A stretch of DNA of 41,910 bases from positions 1-41,910 of the IMG/VR virus record IMGVR_UViG_3300020180_000043; one strand, written 5' to 3'. Positions within the stretch are counted from its first letter, which is position 1. Every line of letters starts with the position of its first letter. Source of the DNA: a virus. The position numbers were made by a program, and so were the translations under genes. A model generated the notes under the pieces. That model worked only from the letters and a program-made list of their open reading frames with translations. It did no database searches and was not told the DNA's origin. Positions 3,977 to 41,904 of the stretch are shown piece by piece.

Positions 3977-4342
3977 ATGGCACAGTTTAACAGACAACAC
4001 TTACGGTGTTTTAAGTTTAAGTGTTATGTATGCGATGTGACAAGAACGTACCGACACTTTACTATGTTTTCGTCGAGTGTTGATCATTTTAGTTTTGACT
4101 TAAAAGATTGGAGACTATTCTGTGAATATGTACATGATTGTCAGCAGAAGAGTTTGACAAAGTCGAACCGAGACTTTCTTTGTCAAACTACTGGTATGTT
4201 TGGTATCGGGTTTGAGAACAAACAAGACTCGAAACTGATAATGTGTCAATCTTGTTGGTATTCAAACATGACGCAGGTGTCACTGAAACTTGACTTACAT
4301 TACTTCAAGGACAACGGAGTGTCTACTGGAGTGTTTAGTTAA
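3977..4342 (+). CDS. Putative zinc-ribbon protein, 121 aa
   Basis: The start at ATG 3977 is chosen because GGAGG ends 5 bases upstream; the in-frame TTG at 3965 lies ahead of that site. The protein starts MAQFNRQHLRCFKFKCYVCD. Cys16-x2-Cys19 and Cys90-x2-Cys93 (MCQSCW) make two CxxC knuckles suited to one zinc ion, with further cysteines at 11, 49, 55 and 69. It is basic and aromatic-rich. It may bind nucleic acid or protein; no family is assigned. The gene directly precedes the ArsR-like regulator. Confidence 0.65.
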   Translation: MAQFNRQHLRCFKFKCYVCDVTRTYRHFTMFSSSVDHFSFDLKDWRLFCEYVHDCQQKSLTKSNRDFLCQTTGMFGIGFENKQDSKLIMCQSCWYSNMTQVSLKLDLHYFKDNGVSTGVFS

Positions 4343-4355
4343 CCGCAAACTTAAC
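4338..4355 (+). promoter_or_regulatory. Stem-loop abutting the ribosome-binding site of the 4368 gene
   Basis: GTTAA (4338-4342) and TTAAC (4351-4355) pair over an 8-base loop. The next bases are C then AAGGAG (4357-4362). The stop codon of the previous gene lies within the left arm. Confidence 0.35.
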
Positions 4356-4367
4356 CAAGGAGTCGTT

Positions 4368-4715
4368 ATGAGTAACCCAGAACTTTCTGGTACTCTAGTT
4401 TTGACTAGTGAAAAACTAGAAGAAATAGCTGATGTGTTCAAAGGATTAGGAGCCGGTGTAAGACTTAAGATATTCTTGTATCTCTGTTTTGGGAACAAGG
4501 CAATCTCTGTCTCTACAATCTGTGATAATCTTGCACTTAGCGTGCAACTAACAAGTCATCACTTACGTGAACTTAAACGAATAGGGTTGGTCGGATCGAG
4601 ATCTAACTCACCGTTTGAGTTGTATTACCCAAAGCGGGAGATACTAGGTATCGTGATTAACTTGTTAAGTGACGCTAAGAAGAAGATCGAAACACGACCT
4701 GTTGAAGATGTCTAA
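4368..4715 (+). CDS. ArsR-like winged-helix DNA-binding protein, 115 aa
   Basis: The start at 4368 has AAGGAG 5 bases upstream; an extended frame from 4290 has no such site. Residues about 20-90 follow the ArsR/HTH_5 pattern: VFKGLGAGVRLKIFLYL, then SVSTICDNLALSVQLTSHHL as helix-turn-helix, then RELKRIGLVGSRSNSP and FELYYPKR as the beta wing. No metal-binding CxC motif is seen in the recognition helix, so it is probably not a metal sensor. It may be the phage regulator that binds one of the dyads in this block, but there is no direct evidence for its target. Confidence 0.7.
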   Translation: MSNPELSGTLVLTSEKLEEIADVFKGLGAGVRLKIFLYLCFGNKAISVSTICDNLALSVQLTSHHLRELKRIGLVGSRSNSPFELYYPKREILGIVINLLSDAKKKIETRPVEDV

Positions 4716-4724
4716 AGGAGTCCT

Positions 4725-5567
4725 ATGCCTACTATCGAAGATGCTTGTAACAACAATTTGTTGAGGCCACCTAAGATTTTGCTCGTAGGATCATATGCGA
4801 GCGGGAAGTCAAGTCTTGCGTTTACTTTGGGAGCCGAAGCGGAAGTCCTTGACATGGATGGTAACGTAAGACCACCATTATCAGTAGTGGATCAGTTCAG
4901 CTCGGCGAGAAAGCTAGTTGAGTGGAATCAGCTTATAGACAAAGATGCTATGAACCCTGATTCATGGGAGACCTTTAAGGCTCGTGTCGTTGCGATACAT
5001 AATAGTATTATCTCCAAATCGTATAAGAAGAAAGCCGTGATACTTGATTCATTTACGACAATGGGAGAGTCTGCTATGCGTATGATTCGTAAGCAGAAAA
5101 GGAAACTGATGGATCCATCACAGCCGACACAACCGGAGTGGGGACTAGCGTTTAACGAGGTACAGTTTATCCTGAGCATGATACGAACCTGGCCGATTAT
5201 TGTTATTATGAACTGTCATGAAATGGTAATAACAGAAGAAGATAAAGACGAGTCTGGAAACTCTGTCACAAAAACAACACGACAAATTCTTGGTATCGGA
5301 AGAAAACTTCCAGCAACACTCGGTGCTTATTTCAGTGAGATATGGTATATGAAACTGGTTATAGGTGCTGGTAACTCGGTAGCTTATAAAATCCAAACCC
5401 GATCTAACGGAAGTGTTGTGGCGAGGTCAGGGTTGGCAATCGCTGATATGACAGACACCAAGATCGGCATGAAAGCGATACTAAAATCAGGTGGGTTTGA
5501 TACTGACTCGATCTCGTTAGTACCTGCCCCAGTTAAACCCTTAACGCCGTTGAAAGGAGGTGAATAA
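4725..5567 (+). CDS. RecA-like AAA ATPase (AAA_24/Sak4-type), recombination
   Basis: This 280-residue protein has Walker A GSYASGKSS (22-30) after the beta strand KILLV, and Walker B KKAVILDSF with Asp108. Later come a sensor-like strand (IIVIMNCHEMV) and an IGRKLPATLGAYFSEIWYM segment. This is the layout of phage AAA_24 and Sak4 proteins, RecA-core ATPases that promote single-strand annealing or serve replication. The start ATG follows AAAGGAG. The gene ends in a perfect AAGGAGGT ribosome-binding site for the next gene, with which it overlaps by one base. An ssDNA-binding-type gene shortly downstream supports a recombination role. Confidence 0.75.
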   Translation: MPTIEDACNNNLLRPPKILLVGSYASGKSSLAFTLGAEAEVLDMDGNVRPPLSVVDQFSSARKLVEWNQLIDKDAMNPDSWETFKARVVAIHNSIISKSYKKKAVILDSFTTMGESAMRMIRKQKRKLMDPSQPTQPEWGLAFNEVQFILSMIRTWPIIVIMNCHEMVITEEDKDESGNSVTKTTRQILGIGRKLPATLGAYFSEIWYMKLVIGAGNSVAYKIQTRSNGSVVARSGLAIADMTDTKIGMKAILKSGGFDTDSISLVPAPVKPLTPLKGGE

Positions 5568-5833
5568 TGTTAGACCAAATGGTAGATGTCGTGGTAAAGG
5601 TTAACAGAGTTATTATGGAGACTGACGGTGTAGTCATAAAAGTAAAGCTGTATCAGCTTAACTGTAATGACCTTGTCGCAAGCATTGAAAGACACGCAGA
5701 CATCGTAAAGCTGCTACAAGCTTTGTACGACGAAGATGATGATCTTAATATCCGAGAGAGTATCAAAGAAGTTTTTACTCTCGAAGAGCCGGAAGATCTG
5801 CGTGATCGTAGTAACGATAGTGATAGTGATTAA
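5567..5833 (+). CDS. Small acidic-tailed protein, 88 aa
   Basis: The ATG at 5567 shares its first base with the stop codon of the ATPase gene and has an ideal AAGGAGGT 7 bases ahead, so it is probably translationally coupled. The protein begins MLDQMVDVVVKVNRVIMETD, is helical, and has an acidic tail ending DRSNDSDSD. No family is recognised. Its position between the RecA-like ATPase and the ssDNA-binding-type protein suggests an accessory of that module. Confidence 0.7.
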   Translation: MLDQMVDVVVKVNRVIMETDGVVIKVKLYQLNCNDLVASIERHADIVKLLQALYDEDDDLNIRESIKEVFTLEEPEDLRDRSNDSDSD

Positions 5834-5902
5834 CAACAGTGCTTGGCGGTGCTGCTGTTGATAGTTTTGGTAGTCTTAGTAACGGGTAAGGTGTTCTTAT
5901 CC
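5834..5902 (+). terminator. Two stem-loops, the first terminator-like
   Basis: CAACAG (5834-5839) pairs with CTGTTG (5855-5860) around an imperfect inner stem, followed by ATAGTTTT. GGGTAAG (5884-5890) pairs with CTTATCC (5896-5902) over a 5-base loop. The first may be a weak terminator or attenuator between the ATPase pair and the ssDNA-binding-type gene. Strength is uncertain because the stem is interrupted. Confidence 0.35.
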
Positions 5903-5923
5903 AATTCTTTGTCTGTAGTTTTT

Positions 5924-5938
5924 AACGGTTAAACCGTT
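5924..5938 (+). promoter_or_regulatory. Perfect dyad abutting the ribosome-binding site of the 5950 gene
   Basis: AACGGTT-a-AACCGTT is a 7-bp perfect dyad, directly followed by AGGAG (5939-5943) and ATG at 5950. It would occlude or frame the ribosome-binding site as RNA, or serve as an operator as DNA. Confidence 0.4.
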
Positions 5939-5949
5939 AGGAGTTCGTT

Positions 5950-6372
5950 ATGCCACTGATTGAAGGAAATTTTGTCGAAGTACCTGATTCAATCCCACCA
6001 GTTGCAGTAGGAACGTACACGTTCAAGGTGAACAACTGCGAAGTTGCAGCTAACAATGCTGGTGATGGTCAGAACCTTGTTATCGAATACGAAGTCGCCG
6101 ACGAAGGTGAAAGCAAGGGTCGTGTGTTGACTAAGTATTACAGCCTCAAACCCAGGTCGAAGAATCTGCATCTTGTTCAGATCAAGCGTAACTTCTTGTC
6201 TGCACAAATGGAACTGTCTGACTCTGGCGTAGATACGGACTCACTCGTGGGTAAGATGGTTCGTGGTGAAGTTGAGCAGAACGACTACGTCGACAAGCGT
6301 AGCGGAAAGGCTATCACAGGGACAGCTCTCAACAAGATTCTCATCCCCGGTGACGATGGTTATCAGGTGTGA
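5950..6372 (+). CDS. DUF669-like putative ssDNA-binding protein
   Basis: This 140-residue beta-rich protein starts MPLIEGNFVEVPDSIPPVAV, followed by GTYTFKVNNCEV and a QNLVIEYEVADEGESKGRVL segment. The order of strands and the P-x-G-x-Y and NL-x-x-E/Y-E pattern recall the phage DUF669 group, annotated as single-strand DNA-binding or recombination accessory proteins. The C-terminal half has KMVRGEVEQNDYVDKRSG, an OB-like strand pair. It has no acidic SSB tip. The gene lies between the RecA-like ATPase and the ParB-methyltransferase and is closed by a terminator-like hairpin. Function is inferred from fold pattern and context. Confidence 0.55.
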   Translation: MPLIEGNFVEVPDSIPPVAVGTYTFKVNNCEVAANNAGDGQNLVIEYEVADEGESKGRVLTKYYSLKPRSKNLHLVQIKRNFLSAQMELSDSGVDTDSLVGKMVRGEVEQNDYVDKRSGKAITGTALNKILIPGDDGYQV

Positions 6373-6408
6373 TAAAGTTTGACGTGGTTTGACACGTTTC
6401 TTTTACAC

Positions 6409-6441
6409 AGGGACACTGAAGAACATTTAGTGTCCTTGTTT
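6409..6441 (+). terminator. Probable rho-independent terminator
   Basis: AGGGACACT (6409-6417) pairs with AGTGTCCTT (6429-6437, one G-T wobble) over an 11-base loop, followed by GTTT. It separates the ssDNA-binding-type gene from the ParB-methyltransferase gene. The T tract is short, so termination may be partial. Confidence 0.5.
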
Positions 6442-6443
6442 AA

Positions 6444-6520
6444 GTATCTTGTATCTTGTATCTTGTATCTTGTATCTTGTATCTTGTATCTTGTATCTTG
6501 TATCTTGTATCTTGTGTCTT
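6444..6520 (+). repeat. Heptanucleotide tandem repeat GTATCTT
   Basis: Ten perfect head-to-tail copies of GTATCTT (6444-6513) are followed by one variant GTGTCTT (6514-6520), ending 20 bases ahead of the ParB-methyltransferase start. Such arrays change length by polymerase slippage. Here it would change the spacing between any upstream promoter or terminator and the gene. The frame through it is open (repeating LVSCILY), so a longer N-terminus is formally possible, but no start with a ribosome-binding site is seen upstream. Confidence 0.95.
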
Positions 6521-6540
6521 GTTTTATTGAGGAGCTGAGT

Positions 6541-7917
6541 ATGTCAGAGACATCTACTGCTGGTTTAATTCCTAACTCTAACCGATCTGCACCGACAGAA
6601 GTCGAAGAGTTATTGGTTTCTATTAACGATATCGTTGTGCCTCCAGATCGGGCACGAAAGGACTACAAACAGATTCGTGAGTTGGCTGATAGTATTCAAG
6701 CAATCGGTCTAATGCACCCTTTGTTTTGCAAAAAGCTTGAGGATGGAAAGTATCAACTTGTCGGCGGCGGGAGACGGTATCGGGCACTCATGGCTTTGGG
6801 TTGGAAGCAGATTCCGATTCGACTCGGTAAAGAACTGACAGAACTTGAAATCAAAGTCGCCGAGCTTGCCGAAAATGTTGATCGTGACCAACTCTCCTGG
6901 CCGGAACAGCTTGAAAACCTACGTCAAATCCACGAACTCTCGATCAAACAGTACGGTGCAGGTGGAGCTGGGCAAGCATCTACGTCTCTCGCGTGGAATC
7001 AAAACAAGACCGCGGAGATGACTGGAGAAAGTAAGTCCCAAATCAGTACCAAGCTAAAACTTGCCAACACACTCAACGCTCGTCCTGATATCAAAAAGAT
7101 GGTTAGTGATCTTCCGATGTCTGCAGCGATGCGACGTACAGCCGAGATCCTAGACACAGAAGCACTACACAAAAAGCACAGCGAACAAAAGCTCGAGATC
7201 CGTAACGAGCTTAAACTCGGCGATGCTAGGGAACTGATTAAATCAATCAGTTCAGATACAGTCGATCTACTTCTCAACGATCCGCCGTTCGGCATGAACG
7301 AACTGCAAGACTCTATCGGTGAGACACTCGATACGAATGCAAACTACACAGCGTTTCTAAAAGAAACTGATAACCTATCGTTTGCGGACTCTTGTTCTTT
7401 ATTACAAAACCTGTTGCCTGAATACTACCGTGTCATGAAGCACAACGCCCACGGGTACATCTTCGCTTCGATGGAGTTGTATCGAGACTTTTTGTTTCAG
7501 GAACTTCGTAAGGTTGGTTTCACAGTGCCCGAGCAACCTGTGATCTGGTACAAAGGAAGGCAGACAACTAACTTTACAGGAAATGATTATCCTTCAAGTT
7601 ATGAAGTTATTTGTTTCTTTCAGAAGCCTGGACTTTCTACGACACCAGCACGGAAGTTACTAAACCCGAAGCTGCACAACGTACTTACGCACTCTCCGTT
7701 GTCTGCTCAAAAGAAGATTCACAGATTCCAAAAGCCGTCAGAACTAATCGTCGCTCTAATAGAAAACTCATCTCGACCTGGAGAGTTAGTTCTGGATCCC
7801 ACAGCTGGGTCTGGTATCGTTGTTAAGATGGCCGCTATGCTCAAGCGGAACGTGATCGGATTCGAGTACGACAGCGACAACTTTGTACGTGCCCAAGCGT
7901 TTCTCGTAATGCCATAG
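6541..7917 (+). CDS. ParB-domain/DNA methyltransferase fusion
   Basis: The start ATG 6541 has GAGGAG upstream; the frame extending to 6379 runs through the tandem repeat and is not used. Residues about 24-125 form a ParB/Srx-type domain: the strand IVVPPDRARKDYKQIRELAD, then QLVGGGRRYRALMALG (72-87) and AELAENVDRDQLSWPEQ (107-123). Residues about 125-190 are helical like the ParB DNA-binding part. Residues about 240-458 form an amino-methyltransferase of the N4-cytosine/N6-adenine group, with DPPF (247-250, motif IV) before the SAM site DPTAGSG (419-425, motif I), which is the beta-type order. It probably methylates phage DNA, either against restriction or as a replication mark. The ParB part may supply nucleotide binding or targeting. 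Confidence 0.85.
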   Translation: MSETSTAGLIPNSNRSAPTEVEELLVSINDIVVPPDRARKDYKQIRELADSIQAIGLMHPLFCKKLEDGKYQLVGGGRRYRALMALGWKQIPIRLGKELTELEIKVAELAENVDRDQLSWPEQLENLRQIHELSIKQYGAGGAGQASTSLAWNQNKTAEMTGESKSQISTKLKLANTLNARPDIKKMVSDLPMSAAMRRTAEILDTEALHKKHSEQKLEIRNELKLGDARELIKSISSDTVDLLLNDPPFGMNELQDSIGETLDTNANYTAFLKETDNLSFADSCSLLQNLLPEYYRVMKHNAHGYIFASMELYRDFLFQELRKVGFTVPEQPVIWYKGRQTTNFTGNDYPSSYEVICFFQKPGLSTTPARKLLNPKLHNVLTHSPLSAQKKIHRFQKPSELIVALIENSSRPGELVLDPTAGSGIVVKMAAMLKRNVIGFEYDSDNFVRAQAFLVMP

Positions 7918-7919
7918 TT

Positions 7920-7942
7920 GACGGTTTCTGTTTAGAAACGTC
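7920..7942 (+). promoter_or_regulatory. Copy 2 of the recurring dyad element, before the helicase gene
   Basis: GAC-g-GTTTCT pairs with AGAAAC-GTC over a 4-base loop, with one bulged G. It starts three bases after the methyltransferase stop and ends 24 bases before the helicase ATG. ATTAGTTTTT follows, so it might also act as a weak terminator. Confidence 0.5.
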
Positions 7943-7966
7943 ATTAGTTTTTACTTTGAGGTTACA

Positions 7967-9181
7967 ATGTCTGAAATTACAACGTCTGATAAACCTAACA
8001 TCGTTTTAAGTACGCAACAGGAGTTCGCTGTCAAGCATATCATTGAGTATGTTAAAAAAGCTTCACAAGACCAGCAGTATCTAAAGAACAAACCGGCGTG
8101 GAAACAAGCTGGATATGCAGGTACTGGAAAAACTACACTACTCAAAGAAACGATACACCGTCTTAGTAAAGATGGGATGTTATGTCAACCGATGGCGTTC
8201 ACCGGCAAGGCTGTGATAGTAATGCGGGAGAAGGGTGTTTGGGATGCAGTTACTATTCACTCTTATATTTATACACCAGTCGGAACAGGTGATGACTTAG
8301 AGTTTATCCTCAAAAGCCGAGCTGAGATTCTAAGTTCTGGCGTTAAATACTTCATGATCGACGAAGCATCTATGCTCTCGTTAGAGTTGTATCAAGACCT
8401 GTTATCTATCGGCTTACCGATGGTGTTTGTCGGTGATCCGGGACAGTTAGAACCAGTCGGAAAAGATCCGAATCTTATGCGTAGTGCTGACTACACTCTG
8501 ACAGAGATTCACAGGCAGGTTGCAGACTCACCAATTCTGAAGTTCGCTACGGCAGCCAGAGCTGGTAAGAGTAACGTATTTCCTTGGGGAAATCCTAGTG
8601 AGTCTGTATCTAAAACGACAGGATCTTCTGTCATAATCTACCCGAAAAACAGAGACGGTTTTTACAGCGTCGAGTTGGGTCTGATAGACAAAGTTGACAT
8701 AGTAATTGCTGCTACAAACATAGAGCGGATTAAGATTAACCATCTTGTCAGAGAGAAGAAGGGTTTTAAGAGTGGACCTTTACTTGTCGCAGGCGAACGG
8801 ATTATTTGTCAAGAGAATAGTCGAAAGTTTGGTATATTCAACGGTCAGATGATGACAGTTACACGTGTAGACAAACACGGTTGGGATGATTCCAAACTCT
8901 GGATCGACGCGACAGATGACAACGGTAGATCTTACTACAAACTTCCTCTTTTAATAGAAGGACTCGACTGGGTTAAGACAAACGGTGTACTCGAATACGA
9001 TCGTAGAAGTACAGCAATCTTTGACTACGGATACTGTCTCACAGCACATAAAGCACAAGGCTCTGAGTGGAAAAGAGTGTTGGTTCTTGAACAATGGGTT
9101 CCGATGTTTGACATGCGACGTTGGGTTTACACAGCTGCTACACGGGCATCACAAGAACTTTATTACGGGAGGAAGTTGTGA
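7967..9181 (+). CDS. SF1 DNA helicase, Dda/RecD-like
   Basis: This 404-residue protein has Walker A AGTGKTT (51-57) in KQAGYAGTGKTTLLKETI. Motif II is FMIDEAS (Asp132, Glu133) and motif III VFVGDPGQLEPVG (153-165). CLTAHKAQGSEW (about 357-368) is the UvrD_C_2/RecD motif V and YTAATRAS (388-395) is motif VI. This is the compact SF1B arrangement of Dda and RecD2-type helicases, 5'-3' translocases that serve replication and recombination. Length matches Dda (about 440). The gene ends in GGGAGGA, which is the ribosome-binding site of the polymerase gene, and the two overlap by four bases (GTGA). Confidence 0.85.
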   Translation: MSEITTSDKPNIVLSTQQEFAVKHIIEYVKKASQDQQYLKNKPAWKQAGYAGTGKTTLLKETIHRLSKDGMLCQPMAFTGKAVIVMREKGVWDAVTIHSYIYTPVGTGDDLEFILKSRAEILSSGVKYFMIDEASMLSLELYQDLLSIGLPMVFVGDPGQLEPVGKDPNLMRSADYTLTEIHRQVADSPILKFATAARAGKSNVFPWGNPSESVSKTTGSSVIIYPKNRDGFYSVELGLIDKVDIVIAATNIERIKINHLVREKKGFKSGPLLVAGERIICQENSRKFGIFNGQMMTVTRVDKHGWDDSKLWIDATDDNGRSYYKLPLLIEGLDWVKTNGVLEYDRRSTAIFDYGYCLTAHKAQGSEWKRVLVLEQWVPMFDMRRWVYTAATRASQELYYGRKL

Positions 9182-11619
9182 TACATGAAAACGCTCTACC
9201 AACTTGGGCTGATAAAAACAACTACGTCCCACCAAGTGGCCCGACTAACGCAAAGATCGTCTTAGTCGGAGAAGCTCCAGGTGAGCAGGAGGTAAACAAA
9301 GGCGCTCCGTTTATCGGTGGGTCAGGGCAGTTACTTCGTCAGTTAATGTCACAAGTCGGGCTTGTCCCGGCTCAATGTTACATGACCAACGTAATCAAAC
9401 ATCGTCCACCAAAGAATGACTTCTCTTTGTTATACACAGATTTACAGCGTCGCATGAATCCGTCGGATTATTTAATTCAGTCTCAACAACAACTGATAGA
9501 GGAAATCAATCGTGTTTCACCAAATATCACAGTTCTCCTCGGAGCCGAAGCTCTCAGGGCAGTCACAGGATACCGTCAAATCGGTAATTGGAGGGGGAGT
9601 ATACTCGAAACTAAGGTTGGAAAGTGCGTGCCTACCTTTCATCCTTCGTATGTCTTACGCATGTATGATGACTACCCAATCCTCCAGCTTGATCTTAAAA
9701 GAGTACGTGACGAGAGCACAAATGCTGGAGTCAATGTTCCCAAACCACGATTTATCGTCAACCCTTCGTTCAGTGATGTCATCACTTACCTTAGTCGACG
9801 ACCAAAACGACTTGCGTTCGATATTGAGACTACAGGAAGTCTTATCCGATGTCTTGGACTAGCTAGTAGTAAGGACGAAGCGATCTGTATTCCGTTTATC
9901 TCCAACCCGGCACGACCTAGAGTTGGTAGTGGTATGATGATCTTCAACACGGAAGCTAACCAGCCGCTCAGCCAGAATCACTGGACACCAGAACAGGAAT
10001 ACGAAATCTGGCGTCGTATCGCTGATCTAATGTCCGACGAACGTGTACAAAAGGTAGCACAAAACGCACCGTTTGATATGGAACGTCTTGCTCGACAAGC
10101 TGGTGTGTTTGTAAAAAACCTCCACATGGATACGATGATTGCATGGCATACACTCTACCCGGAGTTACCTAAGGGGCTTGATTTTCTGTGTTCGATCTTG
10201 ACTCGTGTACCGTATTACTCAGGCTACGATGCCAGTGACGACTACTCGACCTGGGTATACAACTGTTGGGACTGTGTTGTAACGTATGAATGTTCCGACG
10301 TAATAGAAAAAGATGTCAACAGTTTACCACTAGTAACACAGAGCTATTATCATTTTGTGAAGAAACCTGCGGTTGAGACGTTTTTGTTCGTCGAACAAGA
10401 GGGTATCTTAGTAAACAATGAGTTAAAAACTAAACGGAGACTAGAAGTTCAGGAGGTAGCGTTAGACTTAAGCAACAAGATTAAAGGAATGTCAGGTGGG
10501 CTGGTAGCTAATCCGTCAAGCGATACACAGATTAAGAAGTATCTGTATCAGACTTTAGGTCTTAGTGTAATCTACAACCGCAAGACAGGATCACCTACGA
10601 CAGACAAACATGCTCGTGAAAAGCTTGCTAAGAAATACCCTGAACACAAACTTCTATTCGACGTGCTCGATGAGTATTCTATTATCGACACGTTACTAAC
10701 AGGGTTCTTAAACAAAGAACTTAACACCGACGGTCGAATGCGTACGCATTATAACGTGGGCGGTACTTTAACAGACAGACTTAGCTCATCCGGCGAGGGT
10801 GTAACCCAATGGATAGCTACTAATCTGCAAAATGCACCCCGCGGGAAGGACAAAACACAAAAGTATTCTTACCGTTTTCGTGAGATGTTCATCGCTGATC
10901 CCGGTGAAGTGTTGCTCAAGTGTGATCTATCGCAGGCAGAGTTTCGTCTCGTAGTCTGGCTTGCTAGAATTGAACGGCTTATCAAACGGTATCAAGTGGA
11001 ACCTAACTTCGACGTGCATAAGATGGTAGCGTCGATGATCTTTAACAAGCCTGAATCTGAAATCGGAAACGATTCTCCAGAACGATCGTTAGCTAAGAAT
11101 GGAGTTTATGGTGGGAATTATGCAATGCAGTACCAAACAGCTGCAAAAACTTACAGGATGCCATTGGAAACTGCCAAGTTTATTCTTGACAGTTACAGAA
11201 GAATCATACCAGAGATTCCTATCTGGTGGACAACAGTGGATAACAAACTACGACAAAACAGAACGCTCATCAACGCGATGGGACGCAGGCGTATATTCTT
11301 CGGGCGACTTGACGATCAAGACACTTTTAGAGCAGCTTATTCGGACGAAGCCCAGTCGCTCGTATCTGGTATCATCAATCGTGCGGCTGTACTCGCAAAC
11401 GAGACGTTTAAGAGAAGTGAGTGTAGGTTGCTCTTGCAAGTTCACGACGAGCTAGTTTTTGGGTGTAAGAAAGAATTGGTTAACACGTACACACCGAGAA
11501 TTAGAAACTTAATGGAGTACCCGTTGTTATTTCCAGGTGTCGTTGAGCCACTGGTGATTCCAGCAGACATTAGTATGGGCGACAACTGGCACGACCAACA
11601 GAAAGTCATTTTACTTTAA
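9178..11619 (+). CDS. Uracil-DNA glycosylase/DNA polymerase I fusion
   Basis: The start is the GTG at 9178, five bases after GGGAGGA and overlapping the helicase stop. This gives 813 residues. Residues about 24-170 match family 4 uracil-DNA glycosylase: VLVGEAPGEQE (28-38), KGAPFIGGSGQLL, TNVIKHRPP (70-78) and the HPS motif (155-157). The iron-sulfur cysteines of that family are absent (only Cys67 and Cys150). Then come a 3'-5' exonuclease (AFDIETTG, Asp215 and Glu217; AQNAPFDME; later NCWDCVVTYE) and a family A polymerase: motif A CDLSQAEFR (Asp583), motif B R636SLAKNGVYGGNY and motif C HDE (756-758). It is the replicative polymerase. The fused glycosylase may bind or remove uracil during synthesis. 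Confidence 0.9.
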   Translation: MIHENALPTWADKNNYVPPSGPTNAKIVLVGEAPGEQEVNKGAPFIGGSGQLLRQLMSQVGLVPAQCYMTNVIKHRPPKNDFSLLYTDLQRRMNPSDYLIQSQQQLIEEINRVSPNITVLLGAEALRAVTGYRQIGNWRGSILETKVGKCVPTFHPSYVLRMYDDYPILQLDLKRVRDESTNAGVNVPKPRFIVNPSFSDVITYLSRRPKRLAFDIETTGSLIRCLGLASSKDEAICIPFISNPARPRVGSGMMIFNTEANQPLSQNHWTPEQEYEIWRRIADLMSDERVQKVAQNAPFDMERLARQAGVFVKNLHMDTMIAWHTLYPELPKGLDFLCSILTRVPYYSGYDASDDYSTWVYNCWDCVVTYECSDVIEKDVNSLPLVTQSYYHFVKKPAVETFLFVEQEGILVNNELKTKRRLEVQEVALDLSNKIKGMSGGLVANPSSDTQIKKYLYQTLGLSVIYNRKTGSPTTDKHAREKLAKKYPEHKLLFDVLDEYSIIDTLLTGFLNKELNTDGRMRTHYNVGGTLTDRLSSSGEGVTQWIATNLQNAPRGKDKTQKYSYRFREMFIADPGEVLLKCDLSQAEFRLVVWLARIERLIKRYQVEPNFDVHKMVASMIFNKPESEIGNDSPERSLAKNGVYGGNYAMQYQTAAKTYRMPLETAKFILDSYRRIIPEIPIWWTTVDNKLRQNRTLINAMGRRRIFFGRLDDQDTFRAAYSDEAQSLVSGIINRAAVLANETFKRSECRLLLQVHDELVFGCKKELVNTYTPRIRNLMEYPLLFPGVVEPLVIPADISMGDNWHDQQKVILL

Positions 11620-11628
11620 GGAGCTATT

Positions 11629-12153
11629 ATGCAAGAGGAGCGTATGGAAACGTTTGCACGAATTAAATCAAACCATCAGACGATGATTGAAAACTTCATG
11701 ACACACGCCGAGCAGGATGTTCCTAGGATTCCCACAATCCCACCACTGGAAGTCAGACTTCTGCGAGCGAAGTTGATCTTAGAAGAAGCTGTGGAGACTA
11801 TAAAAGGCTTAGGTTTTAAGGTGACTCCAGCGTGTCTTAACCGTGTCGCACATAACGGTGTTCGTTTAGACAACTGTGAGTTTACAGCAATTTATACTCC
11901 TGATCTCGTCGAAATCGTAGACGGTTGCGGAGACCTAAGCGTGGTAACAATAGGTACGCTGTCTGCGTGCGGAGTGAGTGATGTGTCTGTCTTACGTATA
12001 ATTGACATAGCTAACTTGAGAAAGTTTGCACCTGGTTCGTATCGTAGAGCAGACGGGAAGTGGGTTAAACCACCTGGGTTCACTCCGCCCGATATACATA
12101 ACCTGCTCGAGCATCAGAAAAAGATTGCTGCAAACTTAAACAAAAACGATTAA
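11629..12153 (+). CDS. MazG-like nucleotide pyrophosphohydrolase
   Basis: This 174-residue protein has ATG after AAGGAG. Residues about 40-65 (LRAKLILEEAVETIKGLGF) and about 90-112 (LVEIVDGCGDLSVVTIGTL) carry the E-x2-E and E-x2-D/D-x3 metal-binding pattern of all-alpha NTP pyrophosphohydrolases (MazG/PRA-PH superfamily). The tail NLRKF, RRADGKWVKPPGFTPPDI is the conserved C-terminal signature of phage members annotated as phosphoribosyl-ATP pyrophosphohydrolase-like. It probably hydrolyses a nucleotide such as a non-canonical dNTP or (p)ppGpp precursor. It follows the polymerase by 9 bases in the same operon. A role in dNTP pool cleaning would suit a polymerase with a uracil-recognition domain. 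Confidence 0.75.
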   Translation: MQEERMETFARIKSNHQTMIENFMTHAEQDVPRIPTIPPLEVRLLRAKLILEEAVETIKGLGFKVTPACLNRVAHNGVRLDNCEFTAIYTPDLVEIVDGCGDLSVVTIGTLSACGVSDVSVLRIIDIANLRKFAPGSYRRADGKWVKPPGFTPPDIHNLLEHQKKIAANLNKND

Positions 12154-12165
12154 CGGAGTATTACA

Positions 12166-13395
12166 TTGAGTGATCATAAAGATCTCAATTTCGTTCAAGG
12201 ATTCATGAACTTTTGTGCAAACACAGAAGTTCCACAGATGTTCGCAGCGTGGTCTGCCATTGCTGGGATATCAGCGATACTAGGACGACGCACGTATATC
12301 GAATTTGGTGCAGGCAACATCTACCCGAACATGTACATCACGCTTGTAGCTGGTTCAGGACAGATGCGTAAGTCTACATCTATTGATATGATCTCAGACA
12401 TGTTAAGAGAAATCAAACCTGGACCAAACATTGTCGCTCAAAAGCTGACACCGGAAGCTCTTATTGATTCACTCAAAGTTGTACACACAGAAGACCCGGC
12501 TCATTTCATGAAAGTGACATGCACCGGGTTCATCCTCGCTGATGAGTTAGCCACGTTTCTGAACAAACAAAGTTACGAAGCCGGTATCGCACCGTTACTA
12601 ATTCAGTTCTTTGATTGTAAAGCGTCGTGGGAATACCGCACGAAATCAGGCGGGTCACAGGTTCTTACAGACTTATGTCTCGGTATGATAGCAGGTTCGA
12701 CTATCGACTGGTTGAGTTCTGCGATCCCTACCAACGCCGTCGGTGGTGGACTCACGTCGCGTATCGTGTTTGTTTATGTCGATCAACCTGCGGCTCCAGT
12801 ACCATATCCGGTTATGTCCGATGAGACTCGATCACTAAGGTTGACTTTGATAAACCATCTCAACAGACTAGCTCGACTCGAAGGAATGTTCAAACTTACA
12901 GATTCTGCTATGTCTTTTTATAAGAAAGAGTACATGCGATTCTATAACGGAGATGACGGACATACGTTCTTCAACAACCCTACACTGCGAGGGTATGCCA
13001 GTCGTAGACATATCCACCAACTAAAACTTTCAATGCTTTTATCAGCTGCTGAAGACGATGCTAGGATAATAGAAGATCGTCATATCGCGGGAGCGACACA
13101 ATTTCTCTCCTTATCAGAAAAGCATATGTCTACAGTTCTCAACATGATTACAAGCACAGAACTTGGTCTATTACAAAAACAGTTTATCGACATGATAATG
13201 CGATCTCCAGTCAACCCAGTAACAAAAGAACGGAGAGTATCCAAGTCTCTCATCTTACGTGTGATGGGACACCGGGTTACTCTCCGTGAACTAGATGAGA
13301 CTATTAACAGTCTCAAAATCTCTCATGGTCTAACAGAAGTTATTTCCGGTAAAGAGATCTTCTACGTGTTAAAGGACCGAAACGATCCTGGATGA
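12166..13395 (+). CDS. DUF3987-like ATPase, probable replicative helicase
   Basis: The start is a TTG at 12166 following ACGGAGT with normal spacing, giving 409 residues beginning (M)SDHKDLNFVQGFMNF. Residues about 25-62 (PQMFAAWSAIAGISAILG, YPNMYITLVA) lead into Walker A GSGQMRKST (63-71). Walker B is GFILADELATFL with Asp126 and Glu127. A TSRIVFVY segment follows and the C-terminus is winged-helix-like (about 330-400). This is the layout of DUF3987 proteins found with primase domains in phages and plasmids. It is probably a helicase or initiator ATPase. I see no separate primase in the window. The last 56 bases overlap the convergent gene on the other strand. Confidence 0.65.
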   Translation: MSDHKDLNFVQGFMNFCANTEVPQMFAAWSAIAGISAILGRRTYIEFGAGNIYPNMYITLVAGSGQMRKSTSIDMISDMLREIKPGPNIVAQKLTPEALIDSLKVVHTEDPAHFMKVTCTGFILADELATFLNKQSYEAGIAPLLIQFFDCKASWEYRTKSGGSQVLTDLCLGMIAGSTIDWLSSAIPTNAVGGGLTSRIVFVYVDQPAAPVPYPVMSDETRSLRLTLINHLNRLARLEGMFKLTDSAMSFYKKEYMRFYNGDDGHTFFNNPTLRGYASRRHIHQLKLSMLLSAAEDDARIIEDRHIAGATQFLSLSEKHMSTVLNMITSTELGLLQKQFIDMIMRSPVNPVTKERRVSKSLILRVMGHRVTLRELDETINSLKISHGLTEVISGKEIFYVLKDRNDPG

Positions 13396-35084: not shown

Positions 35085-37820
35085 TCAATAACTTCCTTCC
35101 ACAGCACCAGCAACCCAGCTAGATGCAGTCTGTAAACGACTCGTCCCGTAGTAATCCTCAAACACACCGAGAACAGGTCTAGCTAGTGTCTTAGCCTGAC
35201 TTGCTACCGGAACTTTATACAACGTATTAAGAACAGCATTCTCAAGTACGTTGTTTGAAAAATTAGTCCGTTTATTCCAGTTAGTCACCGACTCAGCTGT
35301 ATACGAACTACCTATAATAAACTTGTTAAACGTAGCATACGTATTGCGTTGATTATGCACTGTCGACGTGTCTGTTGATTTCAAATACGCACATGCAGTT
35401 TGCGTACTGGCAGATCCGTTTACTTCAAGACTAGAACCCTGAAAGATGTTGTTCTTGATATACGCTTCTGTCAACCCGTTAGGGTTTCTCAACAACTGGC
35501 CTGATTTGTTAGTAATCCTCACAGTGTTGTTGTAGATATAAAGATGGTGAAGTGACCTACCTGAGTAATTCACGTTATCAGCATCTTTATCAGATGGGTT
35601 TCTTGTATGCTTATCTAACTGAAATGGTTGACCACCGTCTTTTGTGATAATGTTATTCCTAATCATCACATAACTAGACCCACGTTGAATATCCATCGAA
35701 GCTTGAATGATTTCATTCCGCTCCAAAACAACATACTTAACATACTCCTCAACATGACCAGTCGTCTCGTTTAACGGTCCGATTTGTATCGTACCAGTTT
35801 GAGTCGCTACAGCTAACGAGATAGTTAGCTTGTTATGACAAGCATAATGATGATACCCTTGCTGGATATCCAACACCGTTTTGGCATCATCTACTACGTC
35901 CAGATCTTTCCAAGGACTCAATGTTGCGTTGTACTCCATGTTTCTCAAATCACAATACGCAACAAGCGTCCTGCAACTCGGAGCATATCTGATACAATGT
36001 TCGTTTCGACTATTCGACATCTTACAACCAAGAATTACAACATCATCAGCTTTGATGTACATAATTCCGTTCTTAAGTGCTTTGTTTCCGAGTGTTCGAC
36101 AGTCCTCAACCAATACATAACGAAGATCTTTTACGTCAGAACTCTCTACGAGACTACCAAACTTTGTAACATCAATACCACGAACCAACGTGTTTGTCGA
36201 TCCAGATAGTCTGATCCCGTAATCTTTCTTCAACTCTCCGCCTGTATAACTAGCGTCTAGAGTTACGTTTTCAATCACAGCATTGGTTGCAGTCGTCTCG
36301 ACATAAAACAGGTTACGACCTGACCCAGCCACATTGTACCCAATAACAGGCTTCGTAGTAACTCCGCCTTTATTAAAAGTACTCTCACTCGTAACCATCT
36401 GATTCGCTTTTTTGAATCGAACCCCACCACCGCTTAACCAAAAGGTATCTCCACATCTAAGCACCAGCTTAACCGTTGCTGTCGTAGACAACAGTGCGAT
36501 CGCTTTGGAGAGATTCATAGGTGATGAACTAGAAGTTCCAGTCCCAGTACCGTCTGAACTAACATAATACTTAGTTCTCGTATCGGCAGCCAAGACTACT
36601 TTCGACTCAAACGTATCAACTTTACCAGCTTCGTCCGTGCGTGTTAACCGCACCGTATACGTTCCGGCAGTATTATACGCATGAGCACCGTTAAACCCTC
36701 TCAACTGCGTGTACTTATCTTTAACCTCGTTGACACCAGCAGCAAAATCCCAATCGTATTTCGCAGTCAGAACAGAACCACTCGCAAGTGCTGTGAAATC
36801 TTCTGTCTCGGTAGCAGTTACATCTCCATCGTCAGATTCGTAGGTATACAACCCTACGCCTCTCGCATGTACAACACACGGAACCATCGCACCCTGTTTG
36901 ATAAATCCACTAAGTGTTTGTGCTGTCGGTGCTGCTCGCAAAACCGCGTTTGACGTTCCTGATTTAGAACTCTCATTAGGCACTGCGTCAAGTGCCGTTA
37001 CTTTGTACGAATACGTTATCCCAGTAGTAGCAGTAGTATCCAAATAAGTACTGCCGACAGTACTGAGAACTGTACCAATAGAAGCAGCATAAGCATCGTG
37101 CGACCTATAGATTTTATAACTTGCAAGGTCTGGCTCCGTGTTAGGTGTCCAAGTTAGTCTGATTCCAGTACTTTCGTTAACACCAACAGGTGTACTAGGA
37201 ATCGCAGGAGCAGTCACGTCTGTCCCAGGCACTGCAATCGATACTGTAGCTCCTGTACTCTCGTTTCCAGTCAAATCTAGTGATGTTATCTTATAATCCC
37301 AGGTACTCCCAGCTGTAGCAGCAGTGTGTGTATACTCCAACACACTAACCGTAACACTGTTCAGCTTAACGTATGCTGCTGGAAAGATTCTAGCATACAC
37401 ATTAAACCCAGCAAGATCATTATCTGTTGGTGATGTCCAAGTATTCTTAACAGCAGTCGTACCGACAACAGTCGTTGTTGTAATACTAGGGTTGCCTGGA
37501 GCAGTTACATCGGATGTAAACGAACCCTCGACATCTGTATACGACCCCTCCCCGCCGATATTAACAGCTGTTATCCGATACCAGTAAACAGTATTCGATG
37601 TTGCTGATGTATCTGTGTACGTTGTATTAGCTGTACTGCTGATAAACGTAAACGGACCACCGCGGTTTGTGGATCTATAAACCCTGTAAGACGACACAGC
37701 CTCAGCCACAGCATTTGCTTCCCAAGCAAGTATGACACCAGTCACACCACCATTCGCAACGAGTCCGGTTGGTGAACTTGGCAGTGTAGCAGCTACGATT
37801 GTACTACGGCAGTCACTCAT
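35085..37820 (-). CDS. Large adhesin/tailspike: three FN3 domains, PKD domain, beta-helix
   Basis: This 911-residue protein has an ATG that overlaps the terminase stop (ATGA) with GAGGAAA ahead of it. Residues about 13-105, 108-205 and 206-300 are fibronectin type III repeats (YRVYRSTNRGGPFTFISSTA, VYWYRITAVN; FNVYARIFPAAY; YKIYRSHDAYAAS, YSYKVTALD). Residues about 310-415 are PKD-like (YDWDFAAG, HAYNTAGTYTVRLTRTDEAG). Residues about 420-870 are a right-handed parallel beta-helix with repeated short turns (NLFYVETTATNAVIENVTLD, LRYVLVEDCRTLGNKALKNG, YVMIRNNIITKDG), as in tailspikes and pectate-lyase-type enzymes. It probably binds and perhaps cleaves surface polysaccharide. The catalytic residues cannot be assigned by eye. 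Confidence 0.8.
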   Translation of the reverse strand: MSDCRSTIVAATLPSSPTGLVANGGVTGVILAWEANAVAEAVSSYRVYRSTNRGGPFTFISSTANTTYTDTSATSNTVYWYRITAVNIGGEGSYTDVEGSFTSDVTAPGNPSITTTTVVGTTAVKNTWTSPTDNDLAGFNVYARIFPAAYVKLNSVTVSVLEYTHTAATAGSTWDYKITSLDLTGNESTGATVSIAVPGTDVTAPAIPSTPVGVNESTGIRLTWTPNTEPDLASYKIYRSHDAYAASIGTVLSTVGSTYLDTTATTGITYSYKVTALDAVPNESSKSGTSNAVLRAAPTAQTLSGFIKQGAMVPCVVHARGVGLYTYESDDGDVTATETEDFTALASGSVLTAKYDWDFAAGVNEVKDKYTQLRGFNGAHAYNTAGTYTVRLTRTDEAGKVDTFESKVVLAADTRTKYYVSSDGTGTGTSSSSPMNLSKAIALLSTTATVKLVLRCGDTFWLSGGGVRFKKANQMVTSESTFNKGGVTTKPVIGYNVAGSGRNLFYVETTATNAVIENVTLDASYTGGELKKDYGIRLSGSTNTLVRGIDVTKFGSLVESSDVKDLRYVLVEDCRTLGNKALKNGIMYIKADDVVILGCKMSNSRNEHCIRYAPSCRTLVAYCDLRNMEYNATLSPWKDLDVVDDAKTVLDIQQGYHHYACHNKLTISLAVATQTGTIQIGPLNETTGHVEEYVKYVVLERNEIIQASMDIQRGSSYVMIRNNIITKDGGQPFQLDKHTRNPSDKDADNVNYSGRSLHHLYIYNNTVRITNKSGQLLRNPNGLTEAYIKNNIFQGSSLEVNGSASTQTACAYLKSTDTSTVHNQRNTYATFNKFIIGSSYTAESVTNWNKRTNFSNNVLENAVLNTLYKVPVASQAKTLARPVLGVFEDYYGTSRLQTASSWVAGAVEGSY

Positions 37821-39472
37821 ACCAGTTTCCTCTTATTAAAAAATCTCGTACCCATATCTTGCGACACAGTACTCAACGACGAAGATTTTACATCCAACAA
37901 GTCACCAATCGGACCATGCCTGGCAATGTTATTAGTTCTTCCGTTAGTCAACGACTTGATAGCCCAATCAAGTGTGATACCATCATTTCCGTTAGCAAGC
38001 TCTTTCTTGTTTTTAATTACCTCACCAGTAGTTCTAGGCAGAATAGTAAGTTGCATTGACAATGCATCTGCCATATCATCGTGCTTACCATACGGAAACG
38101 TAAGCAACTCATTCCTGAGTGCTTCATGGGTTGTCCTAATAAGCAGGTGACCGTTAGCAAACAACGGTTGCAAACCCATGATTCTTGAGTTTTTTGATCT
38201 TTTTTGGTGTTGTATCGGTTCGATAACCTGAATCTTTTTCTCGGCTTTAAGTTTCTCTTTTACGTAATACATGAGAGACTTTTGATACTGAACAGCTTCA
38301 ATCCCCACCTTCATAGGCTTGTACAGTTCAATATGCTGGAAAATAGACTCAATAAGCTGTCCTGGATTCCACTTCCCACGACTGATCTCAACAACATATA
38401 TGATACCAGTACGCATGTCTTTCGCACAGGTGCACACTACGTTCCAATCAGGCTCCCCCATTGTCTCCTCAGGGTCTCCGCCAGGATCAACAGTCGTGTA
38501 AAAGAACAGATTGTTACTTTTAGGAAGCACATCGTAGTAACTAAACCACTCCGGTTGAAACAACATATCACCGGATCTGATCGGAGTGTTCATGTACAAA
38601 CAACTGTACATGTACGGTCCCATTGACTTCTTTAATGCGTCTAGAATATCAGCTGGAAACTCCTCAGGAAAGCTTGGTTCACCTGATTCACTAGGTGCTC
38701 CGTTTGGATCTTCTGTCGCAGCTCTGTTGTAACTGTGATAGATGTCTCCTTCATTCTCGTCGATCCAACTTAAAAGATCTTTCTCGAACCAACGAGTTCC
38801 TATGACAATTATTCTCGCTGTTTTGAGATCTGTGAGAAGTGGGTTAGCCAGTTTGTGCCAACCAATCGCCTGACCAATATCTTCCTTTGTAGGAAGCATG
38901 TTATCTTCTGTGATTTCGTCCAGATCAGGGGACACCGTATCATCTTCGATGATTACGTCATAGTGACGCGATACGACCTTAGTTCTCGTCCCGGCTGCTT
39001 CATACGTACTTTCAGGCCAAGCACTTTCTCGCCTCAAACATTTTGACTCCTGTGTCCACGTACACCCATCGTCTGGCAGAACTTCCGGAAACAGCGTTCT
39101 GATAATCTGGTTCTGCTTGAAATGAGCATCAATCGAACTCAGCTTAGTGATCGCATTGTTATGTGTGTTCATAACAACTAACATTCTGATATTAGGATCA
39201 CAACACCCAGCCCAGATCATAAACGCATTTACAAGCGTACTCTTATACCACCCACGTGGTAGAGTAATCTTAACTCTACGTTTAGCCCAATCTTCGAGTA
39301 ACTTACAAATCGGACGATGAATTCTCCTATTTAACTTACTATACCCACACACCCACTTAGCGAAGAAGTACAACGACTCCTTAGCTTTCTTTTTGATCTT
39401 AGCGATCATATGCGGAGCTAAGACAACAGGCTGGTTGTCTTGGTTACCTGGTGGTTTGTGGGGTATTTGCAT
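37817..39472 (-). CDS. terL: Terminase large subunit
   Basis: This 551-residue protein has an ATPase domain with Walker A LPRGWYKST (71-79), the variant P-loop of terminases. Walker B is DVIIEDD (172-178), and the coupling motif region is ARIIVIGTRWFE (219-230). The RNase H-like nuclease has TTVDPGGD (Asp329), GIEAVQYQK (Glu392) and HDDMADALS (Asp465, Asp466 and Asp469). It cuts and pumps DNA through the portal. The start at 39472 lacks a clear ribosome-binding site, and a later ATG (MIAKIKKKAK, residue 22) is possible. Its gene is separated from the small subunit by a 123-base repeat-bearing gap. Confidence 0.9.
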   Translation of the reverse strand: MQIPHKPPGNQDNQPVVLAPHMIAKIKKKAKESLYFFAKWVCGYSKLNRRIHRPICKLLEDWAKRRVKITLPRGWYKSTLVNAFMIWAGCCDPNIRMLVVMNTHNNAITKLSSIDAHFKQNQIIRTLFPEVLPDDGCTWTQESKCLRRESAWPESTYEAAGTRTKVVSRHYDVIIEDDTVSPDLDEITEDNMLPTKEDIGQAIGWHKLANPLLTDLKTARIIVIGTRWFEKDLLSWIDENEGDIYHSYNRAATEDPNGAPSESGEPSFPEEFPADILDALKKSMGPYMYSCLYMNTPIRSGDMLFQPEWFSYYDVLPKSNNLFFYTTVDPGGDPEETMGEPDWNVVCTCAKDMRTGIIYVVEISRGKWNPGQLIESIFQHIELYKPMKVGIEAVQYQKSLMYYVKEKLKAEKKIQVIEPIQHQKRSKNSRIMGLQPLFANGHLLIRTTHEALRNELLTFPYGKHDDMADALSMQLTILPRTTGEVIKNKKELANGNDGITLDWAIKSLTNGRTNNIARHGPIGDLLDVKSSSLSTVSQDMGTRFFNKRKLV

Positions 39473-39522
39473 GTGAGGTACTTAAGAAGTGGAGAGTGAG
39501 AAGTGGAGAATAAGATATTGGG

Positions 39523-39554
39523 TGGATAAGTGGATAAGCGGATAAGTGGATAAG
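39523..39554. repeat. Four tandem (T/C)GGATAAG repeats between terminase genes
   Basis: The copies are TGGATAAG at 39523, TGGATAAG at 39531, CGGATAAG at 39539 and TGGATAAG at 39547, with no gaps. Just upstream AAGTGGAGA occurs twice (39486 and 39500), and TTTAGATCAC occurs twice nearer the small subunit end. This is a plausible pac or terminase-binding site, or a regulatory repeat. Confidence 0.7.
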
Positions 39555-39595: not shown

Positions 39596-40150
39596 TTAGA
39601 TCACACTCTCTACAGACTCCTCCGGAACTCTCGACTCCAAATCTTCATCCAAAATTGACTCAAGTTCTTTCAGTTTGTCAGTGTTAATAGACAAGTTCGC
39701 TGTAACTGACACACTCCGTTCGATAGACTTTCCGTATGTCCGATCAAAAATCTCTTTGATCCCGGCAAGTCTGACCTTATCATTATCTCCACCAAGTGCG
39801 ATTCGTTGTAGTTCGTGTGCGGCAGCTGGAAGTGCGTCGTACAATATCTCCGCAGCTTGATCTCTCGGCTGCATACTCGCTAGATCGAGAACTTTTTGTC
39901 TCTGCTTCCTTCTGACAGCGAGTTCATTCTGAAACAACGGCTGATTTACAATCAAACTTACAGTATTCGGAGCGTATTCCATCTCTCGTGCAATCTCAGC
40001 CTGGCTATGCCCGTCAAGGATTAAGTCAACCATTCTCATATGCTCATGCTTGAGCATCTTCACCCCTTCATACGCACTGCCGGCTCTCGGAACATACCCA
40101 CCAGGCATGTCAATAAATCCCGAAAATTCTGGTTGAATCTGTTCGTCCAT
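39596..40150 (-). CDS. terS: Terminase small subunit
   Basis: ATG at 40150 has GGAGGT upstream. In the 184 residues, residues about 33-70 (LKHEHMRMVDLILDGHSQAE, IAREMEYAPNTVSLIVNQP) form a helix-turn-helix of the terminase small subunit type. Residues about 70-130 are an oligomerising helix pair (VRRKQRQKVLDLASMQPRDQ, AAEILYDALPAAAHELQRIA) and the tail is acidic (LKELESILDEDLESRVPEE). It recognises the packaging site and hands DNA to the large subunit encoded next. It is the first gene of the leftward block. Confidence 0.8.
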   Translation of the reverse strand: MDEQIQPEFSGFIDMPGGYVPRAGSAYEGVKMLKHEHMRMVDLILDGHSQAEIAREMEYAPNTVSLIVNQPLFQNELAVRRKQRQKVLDLASMQPRDQAAEILYDALPAAAHELQRIALGGDNDKVRLAGIKEIFDRTYGKSIERSVSVTANLSINTDKLKELESILDEDLESRVPEESVESVI

Positions 40151-40261
40151 TTTACTACCTCCACTTAAACAAAGTGTTTACTGTTTATACTACATTCCAA
40201 CACGGTAGCGAGACATAACACGGTAAGAGCACTAGCTTGTTTATTTTATCCGAAGTGTTGT

Positions 40262-40317
40262 GTACGTTGTGGGTCATACATTGTGGGTCGTACGTTGTAG
40301 GTCGTACGTTGTAGGTC
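40262..40317 (+). repeat. Four 14-base tandem repeats, consensus GTACGTTGTRGGTC
   Basis: Copies start at 40262, 40276, 40290 and 40304. The last two are identical, the first differs by one base and the second by three. Partial copies (TGTGGGTGAGTC, TAGGTGGGTTGTGGG) continue to about 40350. The 14-base period and position in the divergent region resemble iterons or operator arrays. Confidence 0.85.
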
Positions 40318-40497
40318 ATGTGGGTGAGTCATAGGTGGGTTGTGGGTGGATGATTAAAAATTTTTTGTGTATTTTGAGGGGTGTAATAACAGTTATATGA
40401 CGGACTACCCCTGGGGAGGGGGAGCCGCCCGACCAAATGTCAATCTAGGCAACTTAACCATATCCTACGTTAGTGTTTACTACAGCATGATTCGGAC

Positions 40498-40639
40498 ATG
40501 CTTAGTTTCTACCCATACTTTACCCTTACAAACAAGGCGGAATGGGTAACAGATACCTTACAAATTGGTGATTGTAGGCCTACTTTGCCTAATAGTTAAG
40601 CAATCGGCGTTTTAGGCGTGTTAAATGCTTAGTTTCTAC
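40498..40639 (+). repeat. Direct repeat pair ATGCTTAGTTTCTAC
   Basis: ATGCTTAGTTTCTAC occurs at 40498-40512 and 40625-40639, 127 bases apart. Each copy is near a GCATG-x-x-TCGG motif (before the first copy at 40485, after the second at 40641). Possible protein-binding sites or duplicated promoter parts. Confidence 0.7.
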
Positions 40640-40791
40640 GCAGCATGGATCGGATAAAGTGCAGTTTCCGGTGAAATAATGCGGATTCGTTGTTGTGGCA
40701 TGGGGCTTGCTATGTATTCATTATCGTGTAGCGAGGCGGACCATACGGGGCTTAACCTGATGGACGCAGACCGCTACCGATATCAGGCTCT

Positions 40792-40818
40792 TTGACAAGT
40801 GAATAGGTGTGCTACGCT
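40792..40818 (+). promoter_or_regulatory. Candidate sigma-70-type promoter for the 40939 gene
   Basis: TTGACA (40792-40797) is a consensus -35. TACGCT (40813-40818) is a fair -10 with an extended TGn in front, at a 15-base spacing that is shorter than the optimum. It would read rightward into the 172-residue gene through the dyad at 40887. This is the only consensus TTGACA I found in the divergent region. Confidence 0.35.
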
Positions 40819-40886
40819 TGTAGTGATGTTAAGTCACGCTACAGGTTAGGCTGGACGTACCATAAACCGTCCTACATACGTCAACG

Positions 40887-40909
40887 GATGATTCTACGTT
40901 AGAATCGTC
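40887..40909 (+). promoter_or_regulatory. Copy 5 of the recurring dyad element, before the 40939 gene
   Basis: GATGATTCTA and TAGAATCGTC form a 10-bp stem (one T-G pair) with a 3-base loop. This is the most nearly perfect hairpin of the family. It ends 29 bases before the ATG. Confidence 0.55.
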
Positions 40910-40938
40910 AGAACTAGGGTTTCTTTTGAGGCTATGTT

Positions 40939-41457
40939 ATGACAAGTGAACTTAAGACGTTGTTTGTTTCTCGCATCTCCCCCAAAGGCGTCGATCAATT
41001 TGCAGCACTGAGACTTGACGATATCGTCAAGGACGGTGGCAAGTTTGTCAAGCGTATTGGTAAGGATTGGATTGAAACCAATCAGGACCATGCAGAAGGC
41101 TTACAAATTCCTTACAAGAGTTATACGCCTACTACACTGGATGATGTTCCTGACATGGTCACTAAGATCGTGTCGGTAATGCGGGATCAGTATGAAGTCG
41201 ATGATGATTCGATACTTAAAACTATCACATCGAACCTGGATTTGTGTCTAAACAAGTCTGTCAGGGATTCATACGGTGTCGAAAAGAGTGGTGGTCGTGG
41301 TCGTGGCGCGAAGATCGCTGCGGCGAGCAAGTGGGTTATGAACCTGCCGTTTGATCAAATGGTCGAGATCGCTAAGGAAGCGAACGAGATTCTTAAGACA
41401 GACGGGCAGAAAGCGAAGGATGAATTTATCCTGGCAAGGCATTTGGCAGCCAAGTGA
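40939..41457 (+). CDS. Hypothetical early-type protein, 172 aa
   Basis: ATG at 40939 follows GAGG. The protein begins MTSELKTLFVSRISPKGVDQ. It has a central helical region (VTKIVSVMRDQYEVDDDSIL), a Gly/Arg-rich segment (SYGVEKSGGRGRGAKIAAAS, about 112-131) that could contact nucleic acid, and a C-terminal helix pair ending DEFILARHLAAK. No family is recognised. It has its own promoter candidate, a dyad in the leader and a strong terminator, so it appears to be a single-gene transcript, probably highly or independently expressed. Confidence 0.7.
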   Translation: MTSELKTLFVSRISPKGVDQFAALRLDDIVKDGGKFVKRIGKDWIETNQDHAEGLQIPYKSYTPTTLDDVPDMVTKIVSVMRDQYEVDDDSILKTITSNLDLCLNKSVRDSYGVEKSGGRGRGAKIAAASKWVMNLPFDQMVEIAKEANEILKTDGQKAKDEFILARHLAAK

Positions 41458-41473: not shown

Positions 41474-41508
41474 TCCCTGCAGGGTTTAACCGCCCTGCAG
41501 GGATTTTT
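41474..41508 (+). terminator. Strong rho-independent terminator
   Basis: TCCCTGCAGGG (41474-41484) and CCCTGCAGGGA (41493-41503) pair perfectly over an 8-base loop, followed by TTTTT. Each arm is itself palindromic. It ends the 172-residue gene transcript. Confidence 0.9.
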
Positions 41509-41564: not shown

Positions 41565-41606
41565 GAAGTGTCGGAAAACAAAGTGTCAAAGAATACGAAG
41601 TGTCGG
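41565..41606 (+). repeat. Three iteron-like repeats of RAAGTGTCRR
   Basis: GAAGTGTCGG at 41565, AAAGTGTCAA at 41580 and GAAGTGTCGG at 41597. The last copy touches the left arm of the large inverted repeat. Spacings of 15 and 17 bases are irregular. Confidence 0.6.
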
Positions 41607-41904
41607 TGTATAACGTACTATATACAAGTATAAAATAACTGTTGCAATAGAATTAGGCCTACCCATAGCTATACGGATTGATTTGACGTTAGACTTGCTC
41701 TCAGATTAACCTGTACTGTCTACCTTCTAGAGAGATAATATATATATATTAATATATACAATACACACTCTCTCTCCCCCACACTCTCCATTCCCACACT
41801 TCTCAATCATCAGATTTCAATCGTCAAATGGAAGCGTACCGCTATGGGTAGGCCGAGATCTATTACAACAGTTATTTTATAGTTGTACGCGGTACGTTAT
41901 ACGC
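41606..41904. repeat. Large inverted repeat around an AT-rich core; candidate replication origin or control region
   Basis: The left arm 41606-41676 and right arm 41834-41904 are inverted copies. They align without gaps over 71 bases with 58 matches; the longest exact blocks are TATAAAATAACTGTTG and GGCCTACCCATAGC. The 157-base spacer contains an alternating AT run (about 41744-41760) flanked by GAGAG and CTCTCTC, and ATTTGACG continues the symmetry inside both arms. No gene lies in 41509-41910. Large inverted repeats, AT-rich cores and neighbouring iterons are typical of origins. A duplicated operator pair is the alternative. The right arm ends 6 bases from the window edge. Confidence 0.8.

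Follow-up and report, generated by a model that had tools for sequence, protein, structure and literature searches.

The window analysed here is the whole IMG/VR virus record IMGVR_UViG_3300020180_000043, 41,910 bases in length. Its layout is podovirus-like, with early and replication genes on the + strand (about 1-13395) and late genes on the - strand (13340-40150), and the late and early arms diverge between the terminase small subunit gene (terS) and a small early-strand gene, ORF172 (Table 1). Genes for DNA polymerase A, a primase/helicase, a Sak4-like protein and an exonuclease are held in the early arm, and the virus also encodes a Dda-like helicase. The DNA polymerase A (9121-11619) bears an N-terminal uracil-DNA-glycosylase-superfamily domain, and shortly upstream of it a ParB-like N-terminal domain is fused to a DNA methyltransferase (6379-7917); gene order around the latter gene is similar in Desulfofustis phage LS06. 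Physical ends or divergent promoters could lie in the ORF-poor gap between terS and ORF172. Direct repeats of the GTACGTTGTRGGTC type occur near 40255-40320 in this gap. Between terS and the terminase large subunit gene (terL), four tandem 8-base TTATCC(A/G)C units resembling DnaA boxes are found on the - strand (39522-39553), and no such tandem cluster was found in the close relatives fetched. The record has no direct terminal repeat, a search of cellular genomes found no relatives that would provide a host link, and a nucleotide search of the palindrome region described below against phage records gave no match.

Table 1. Features at the terminase end of the window and at the palindrome.
Feature	Position	Strand	Remarks
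Terminase large subunit	37817..39472	-	PHROG 38, 6e-80
Terminase small subunit, late operon start	39596..40150	-	PHROG 2538, 5.6e-10; 31% to L004
ORF-poor late/early divergence region	40151..40938	.	~790 bases without convincing ORF
ORF172, small early-strand gene	40939..41457	+	position of relatives' ORF1
Intrinsic terminator	41474..41503	+	between ORF172 and palindrome
Three GAAGTGTCGG-like (RAAGTGTCRR) repeats	41565..41606	+	at 41565, 41580, 41597; abut left arm
Palindrome left arm	41608..41693	+	best arms, 86 nt
AT centre	41736..41763	.	alternating, with small inner inverted repeat
Two inverted copies of RAGTGTSGG motif	41778..41801	-	at 41778, 41793; right of AT centre
Palindrome right arm	41817..41902	-	complementary to left arm at 69/86 positions

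Beyond ORF172 and the intrinsic terminator, positions 41608-41902 form a single imperfect palindrome of about 295 bases, gene-free and with an alternating-AT centre. The original prediction, made from the letters alone, had described arms of 71 bases with 58 matches, and the complementary positions between 41606-41676 and 41834-41904 number exactly 58 of 71, with both of its exact blocks (16 and 14 bases) present. The best arms are longer (80% matched, with a gap of 123), and the self-alignment spans the whole palindrome with a score of 194, compared with a maximum of 66 for 1500 shuffled sequences. The BLAST E value of the inverted repeat is ~3e-15 and its folding z-scores are -9.4 (DNA) and -11.7 (RNA); the existence of the inverted repeat is confirmed, at a level far above chance expectation. 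It is a single locus within the 41910-base genome, and no ORF of at least 80 aa overlaps it. The strong terminator, the three repeats and the gene-free stretch with its alternating-AT centre had all been described correctly, and the claim that the mismatches are non-randomly distributed proved borderline, with clustering at p 0.055. The inverted repeat had also been placed next to iterons; the repeats do precede the left arm, but they lie outside it, and no 8-mer is repeated within the window's own arms. The tandem iterons that an iteron origin has inside the site are thus absent from the window's arms, and such iterons were found in many relatives. The motif RAGTGTSGG, which was picked after the fact, matches exactly at 41566 and 41598, and four of its five exact genome matches fall within 41566-41801, in both orientations and partly outside the arms. 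DnaA-box-like sites near the palindrome are weakly enriched (8 observed, ~3 expected). A search of viral contigs for the exact arm motif found none.

Uncultured relatives were collected using terminase and portal proteins and then scanned for self-complementarity, with a palindrome called at a score of at least 90 and with downstream sequence serving as an empirical null for real genomes. In the first set a palindrome was found upstream of terL in 17 of 55 loci (216 kb), while none was found in 525 kb of downstream sequence. The scan was then applied to an independent second set of contigs, retrieved later using another TerL profile; here 8 of 37 loci had an upstream palindrome (147 kb), and the 279 kb of downstream sequence contained none. 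Among loci with 4 kb or more of upstream sequence, the palindrome was present in 13/21 from set 1 and 7/14 from set 2, and was missing above the threshold in 8/21 and 7/14, respectively. The palindromes of the relatives are ~140-440 bp long and imperfect, mostly with an AT-rich centre, and lie on the early-gene side of terS-terL. By inspection their arm sequences are unrelated between viruses and the symmetry is kept; what is conserved is the architecture, that is symmetry and position rather than sequence. The usual order, determined from mechanical ORF calls, is terL-terS, the divergence, one to a few small early-strand ORFs, the palindrome and the early operon, and terS is separated from the palindrome by anything between less than 1 kb and several kb.

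A palindrome is also located directly upstream of the terminase genes in MW202554.1, a distant complete metagenome genome (35672-36100), and another in MW202489.1 (38395-38621). The large palindrome was absent from the five named viruses compared (Pam1, ICBM1, ANMV-1, Lbo-JY12 and Mel-JY34), indicating that it is not generic to such genomes. No cultured relative was found. A literature search with subscription papers and preprints outside its scope, and weak to that extent, turned up no account of an element of this kind, and the conserved palindrome appears to be undescribed in the sources searched. Second large palindromes were observed near the first in two relatives (L066:3868-4033 and L102:2077-2333).

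The central 60 nt of 18 palindromes averaged 78% AT, compared with 57% for the loci (p 1.5e-5); the AT-rich centre is missing in a few (L014, L074). More than half of 27 palindromes had single arms with internal tandem repeats, at a level exceeding most control windows, and these arm repeats are mirrored in the opposite arm, for example GACTACC (L165), GTCCTAC (L074) and TTATGGA (L023). The window is an exception, in that inverted copies of its outlying repeats are instead found right of the AT centre. A terminator universally preceding the palindrome was considered and rejected, as a scan found one in 6 of 27 cases (the window, L022, L072, L074, L173 and L150). Terminators before the palindrome were also seen by eye in L106 and L004, and in the window, L004, L106, L022, L173 and L150 the terminator is located between ORF1 and the palindrome.

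The palindrome is recognisably shared by two relatives, L173 and L150, with 2 substitutions in 175 aligned bases as well as a change in the length of a T-run and small indels. The adjacent ORF1 shows 52 substitutions in 476 and the terminase region ~13% differences; relative to the ORF1 gene, substitutions in the palindrome are approximately tenfold rarer. As the loop is conserved as well as the arms, sequence-specific protein sites would suit this pattern better than base pairing alone. In the strain pair L128/L129 the few arm differences are too few for co-variation. Homology between L173 and L150 ends near the early-side border of the palindrome, a stop that marks an exchange boundary. The window contig stops 8 bp beyond the palindrome edge, and both it and L020 probably end at the palindrome because of this boundary, for which an assembly break would suffice.

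It may well be that the palindrome is the phage's DNA replication origin, with an AT core opened between inverted binding sites, a reading to which we would give an even chance. An origin would best account for the site's constant location at the start of the replication arm, its AT core, the mirrored repeats and the strong constraint. An origin or cruciform-forming control site had been among the original proposals, and the conserved position, AT core and kept symmetry fit a site of that kind, its function being putative. A putative initiator, either phage-coded or consisting of host factors together with the phage DUF3987 primase-helicase, would bind the mirror-image sites in both arms, the AT centre would melt or extrude, and replisomes would be loaded at the opened centre. 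We infer these three steps of initiator binding, melting and replisome loading from the anatomy of the site. The terminator that follows the small upstream gene, present here and in some close relatives, may keep transcription out of the site. Cumulative GC skew, which had been proposed as a check, did not single out the palindrome; its minimum adjoins the divergence region and is at least ~1.4 kb away from the palindrome, and since it tracks transcription divergence and is confounded by gene direction, it is not decisive for the origin. Also weighing against an origin are the loci with ample upstream sequence that show no palindrome above the threshold, the lack of repeated 8-mers in the window's own arms, the weak enrichment of DnaA-box-like sites and the few palindromes whose centre is not AT-rich.

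More tentatively, and with rather less than an even chance, these palindromes could constitute an undescribed class of phage origin, in which an imperfect palindrome of 140-440 bp contains mirrored putative initiator sites and an AT core. Such origins would be fixed ahead of the early operon in a large uncultured podovirus-like clade, and would undergo fast sequence turnover with symmetry kept, probably co-evolving with the putative initiator. The origins of environmental phages are mostly unknown and cannot be found through sequence similarity, and symmetry, here conserved at a fixed place, offers a simple locator of the candidate origin (or end-processing site) across an uncultured clade. 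The palindrome is also a direct experimental target.

In HSV OriS, inverted initiator sites flank an AT-rich spacer, and the unwound form makes a hairpin (PMC12543377). A palindrome with an AT-rich centre, as in OriS and OriL, is found here, and by analogy the phage palindrome may work like OriS, as an origin of the inverted-site/AT-spacer type. However, OriS and OriL belong to a eukaryotic virus with a named initiator (UL9/OBP), and the phage arms are longer, imperfect and different between relatives. The iteron origins of lambda and P4 combine tandem initiator sites with an AT-rich segment near replication genes, a combination seen in many of the relatives, but there the iterons do not form a near-complete palindrome of 140-440 bp, and the window's arms are without tandem repeats.

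In the T7 model, a hairpin has been proposed for concatemer cutting and terminal repeat duplication. The palindrome could similarly be a concatemer junction or packaging-end site, whose hairpin is used to cut concatemers and duplicate the terminal repeats; we regard this as unlikely, and as the strongest rival to an origin because the physical ends of cobaviruses lie in the equivalent region. Cobaviruses share the two-arm layout and have direct terminal repeats (DTRs) of 159-173 bp in an ORF-free inter-module region (PMC6775973). A T7-like junction or DTR region and the palindrome share their location, at the meeting of the late and the early arm. The position upstream of terS is consistent with packaging, as are the two contigs (the window and L020) that end at most 8 bp from the outer edge of the palindrome and L106, which begins inside an apparent palindrome core. 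However, the cobavirus ICBM1 has DTR ends without a comparable large palindrome there, the contig ends can be accounted for by the stop in L173/L150 homology near the border, with no need for physical ends, the separation from terS is variable, and a packaging-end role does not need mirrored tandem repeats.

Somewhat less probable is a transcription-control site, serving the early operon through paired operators or promoters or as an insulator. The site does have a terminator on one side and the early operon on the other, and dimeric operators can be inverted repeats, but a symmetry of 140-440 bp far exceeds ordinary operators and the palindrome region has no sigma-70 promoter above chance. 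A long hairpin non-coding RNA is improbable, despite the strong RNA fold. A functional RNA should give excess G-U pairs on one strand, and in set 1 (the first 18 palindromes) late-strand G-U versus A-C stood at 146:75 and the late strand folded better than controls; this wobble signal was not replicated in the independent set (53:54), the palindrome region has no Rfam match, and it is the antisense strand of the early genes that is favoured.

A protelomerase-type telomere, a mobile inverted-repeat element or an assembly fold-back, which an inverted repeat near a contig end might suggest and of which the original prediction had raised a telomere-like end and a contig-end artefact, is highly improbable, since the arms are 20% diverged with mixed substitutions (8/17 transitions), an argument against a fold-back chimera as well as a protelomerase-style dyad, and since the element is internal in many relatives, is present in a single copy in the window and has a fixed rather than scattered position. 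An N15-type telomere, a near-perfect dyad at a chromosome end, and a MITE-type transposon, with several copies at variable positions, were rejected on the same observations.

In relatives, the palindrome is adjoined by a gene for a small early protein of the diverged ORF1 family (L070:6720-7142, L076:5255-5668, L020:644-1036 and others). ORF172 had no relatives in viral contigs, phage records, PHROGs or Pfam, and what it has in common with the ORF1 family is position and predicted helix order alone. The predicted fold of the ORF1 family, for which no structural match was found, is a three-strand meander plus helices (confident model). In some viruses, a second copy of the small early protein is encoded deeper in the early arm.
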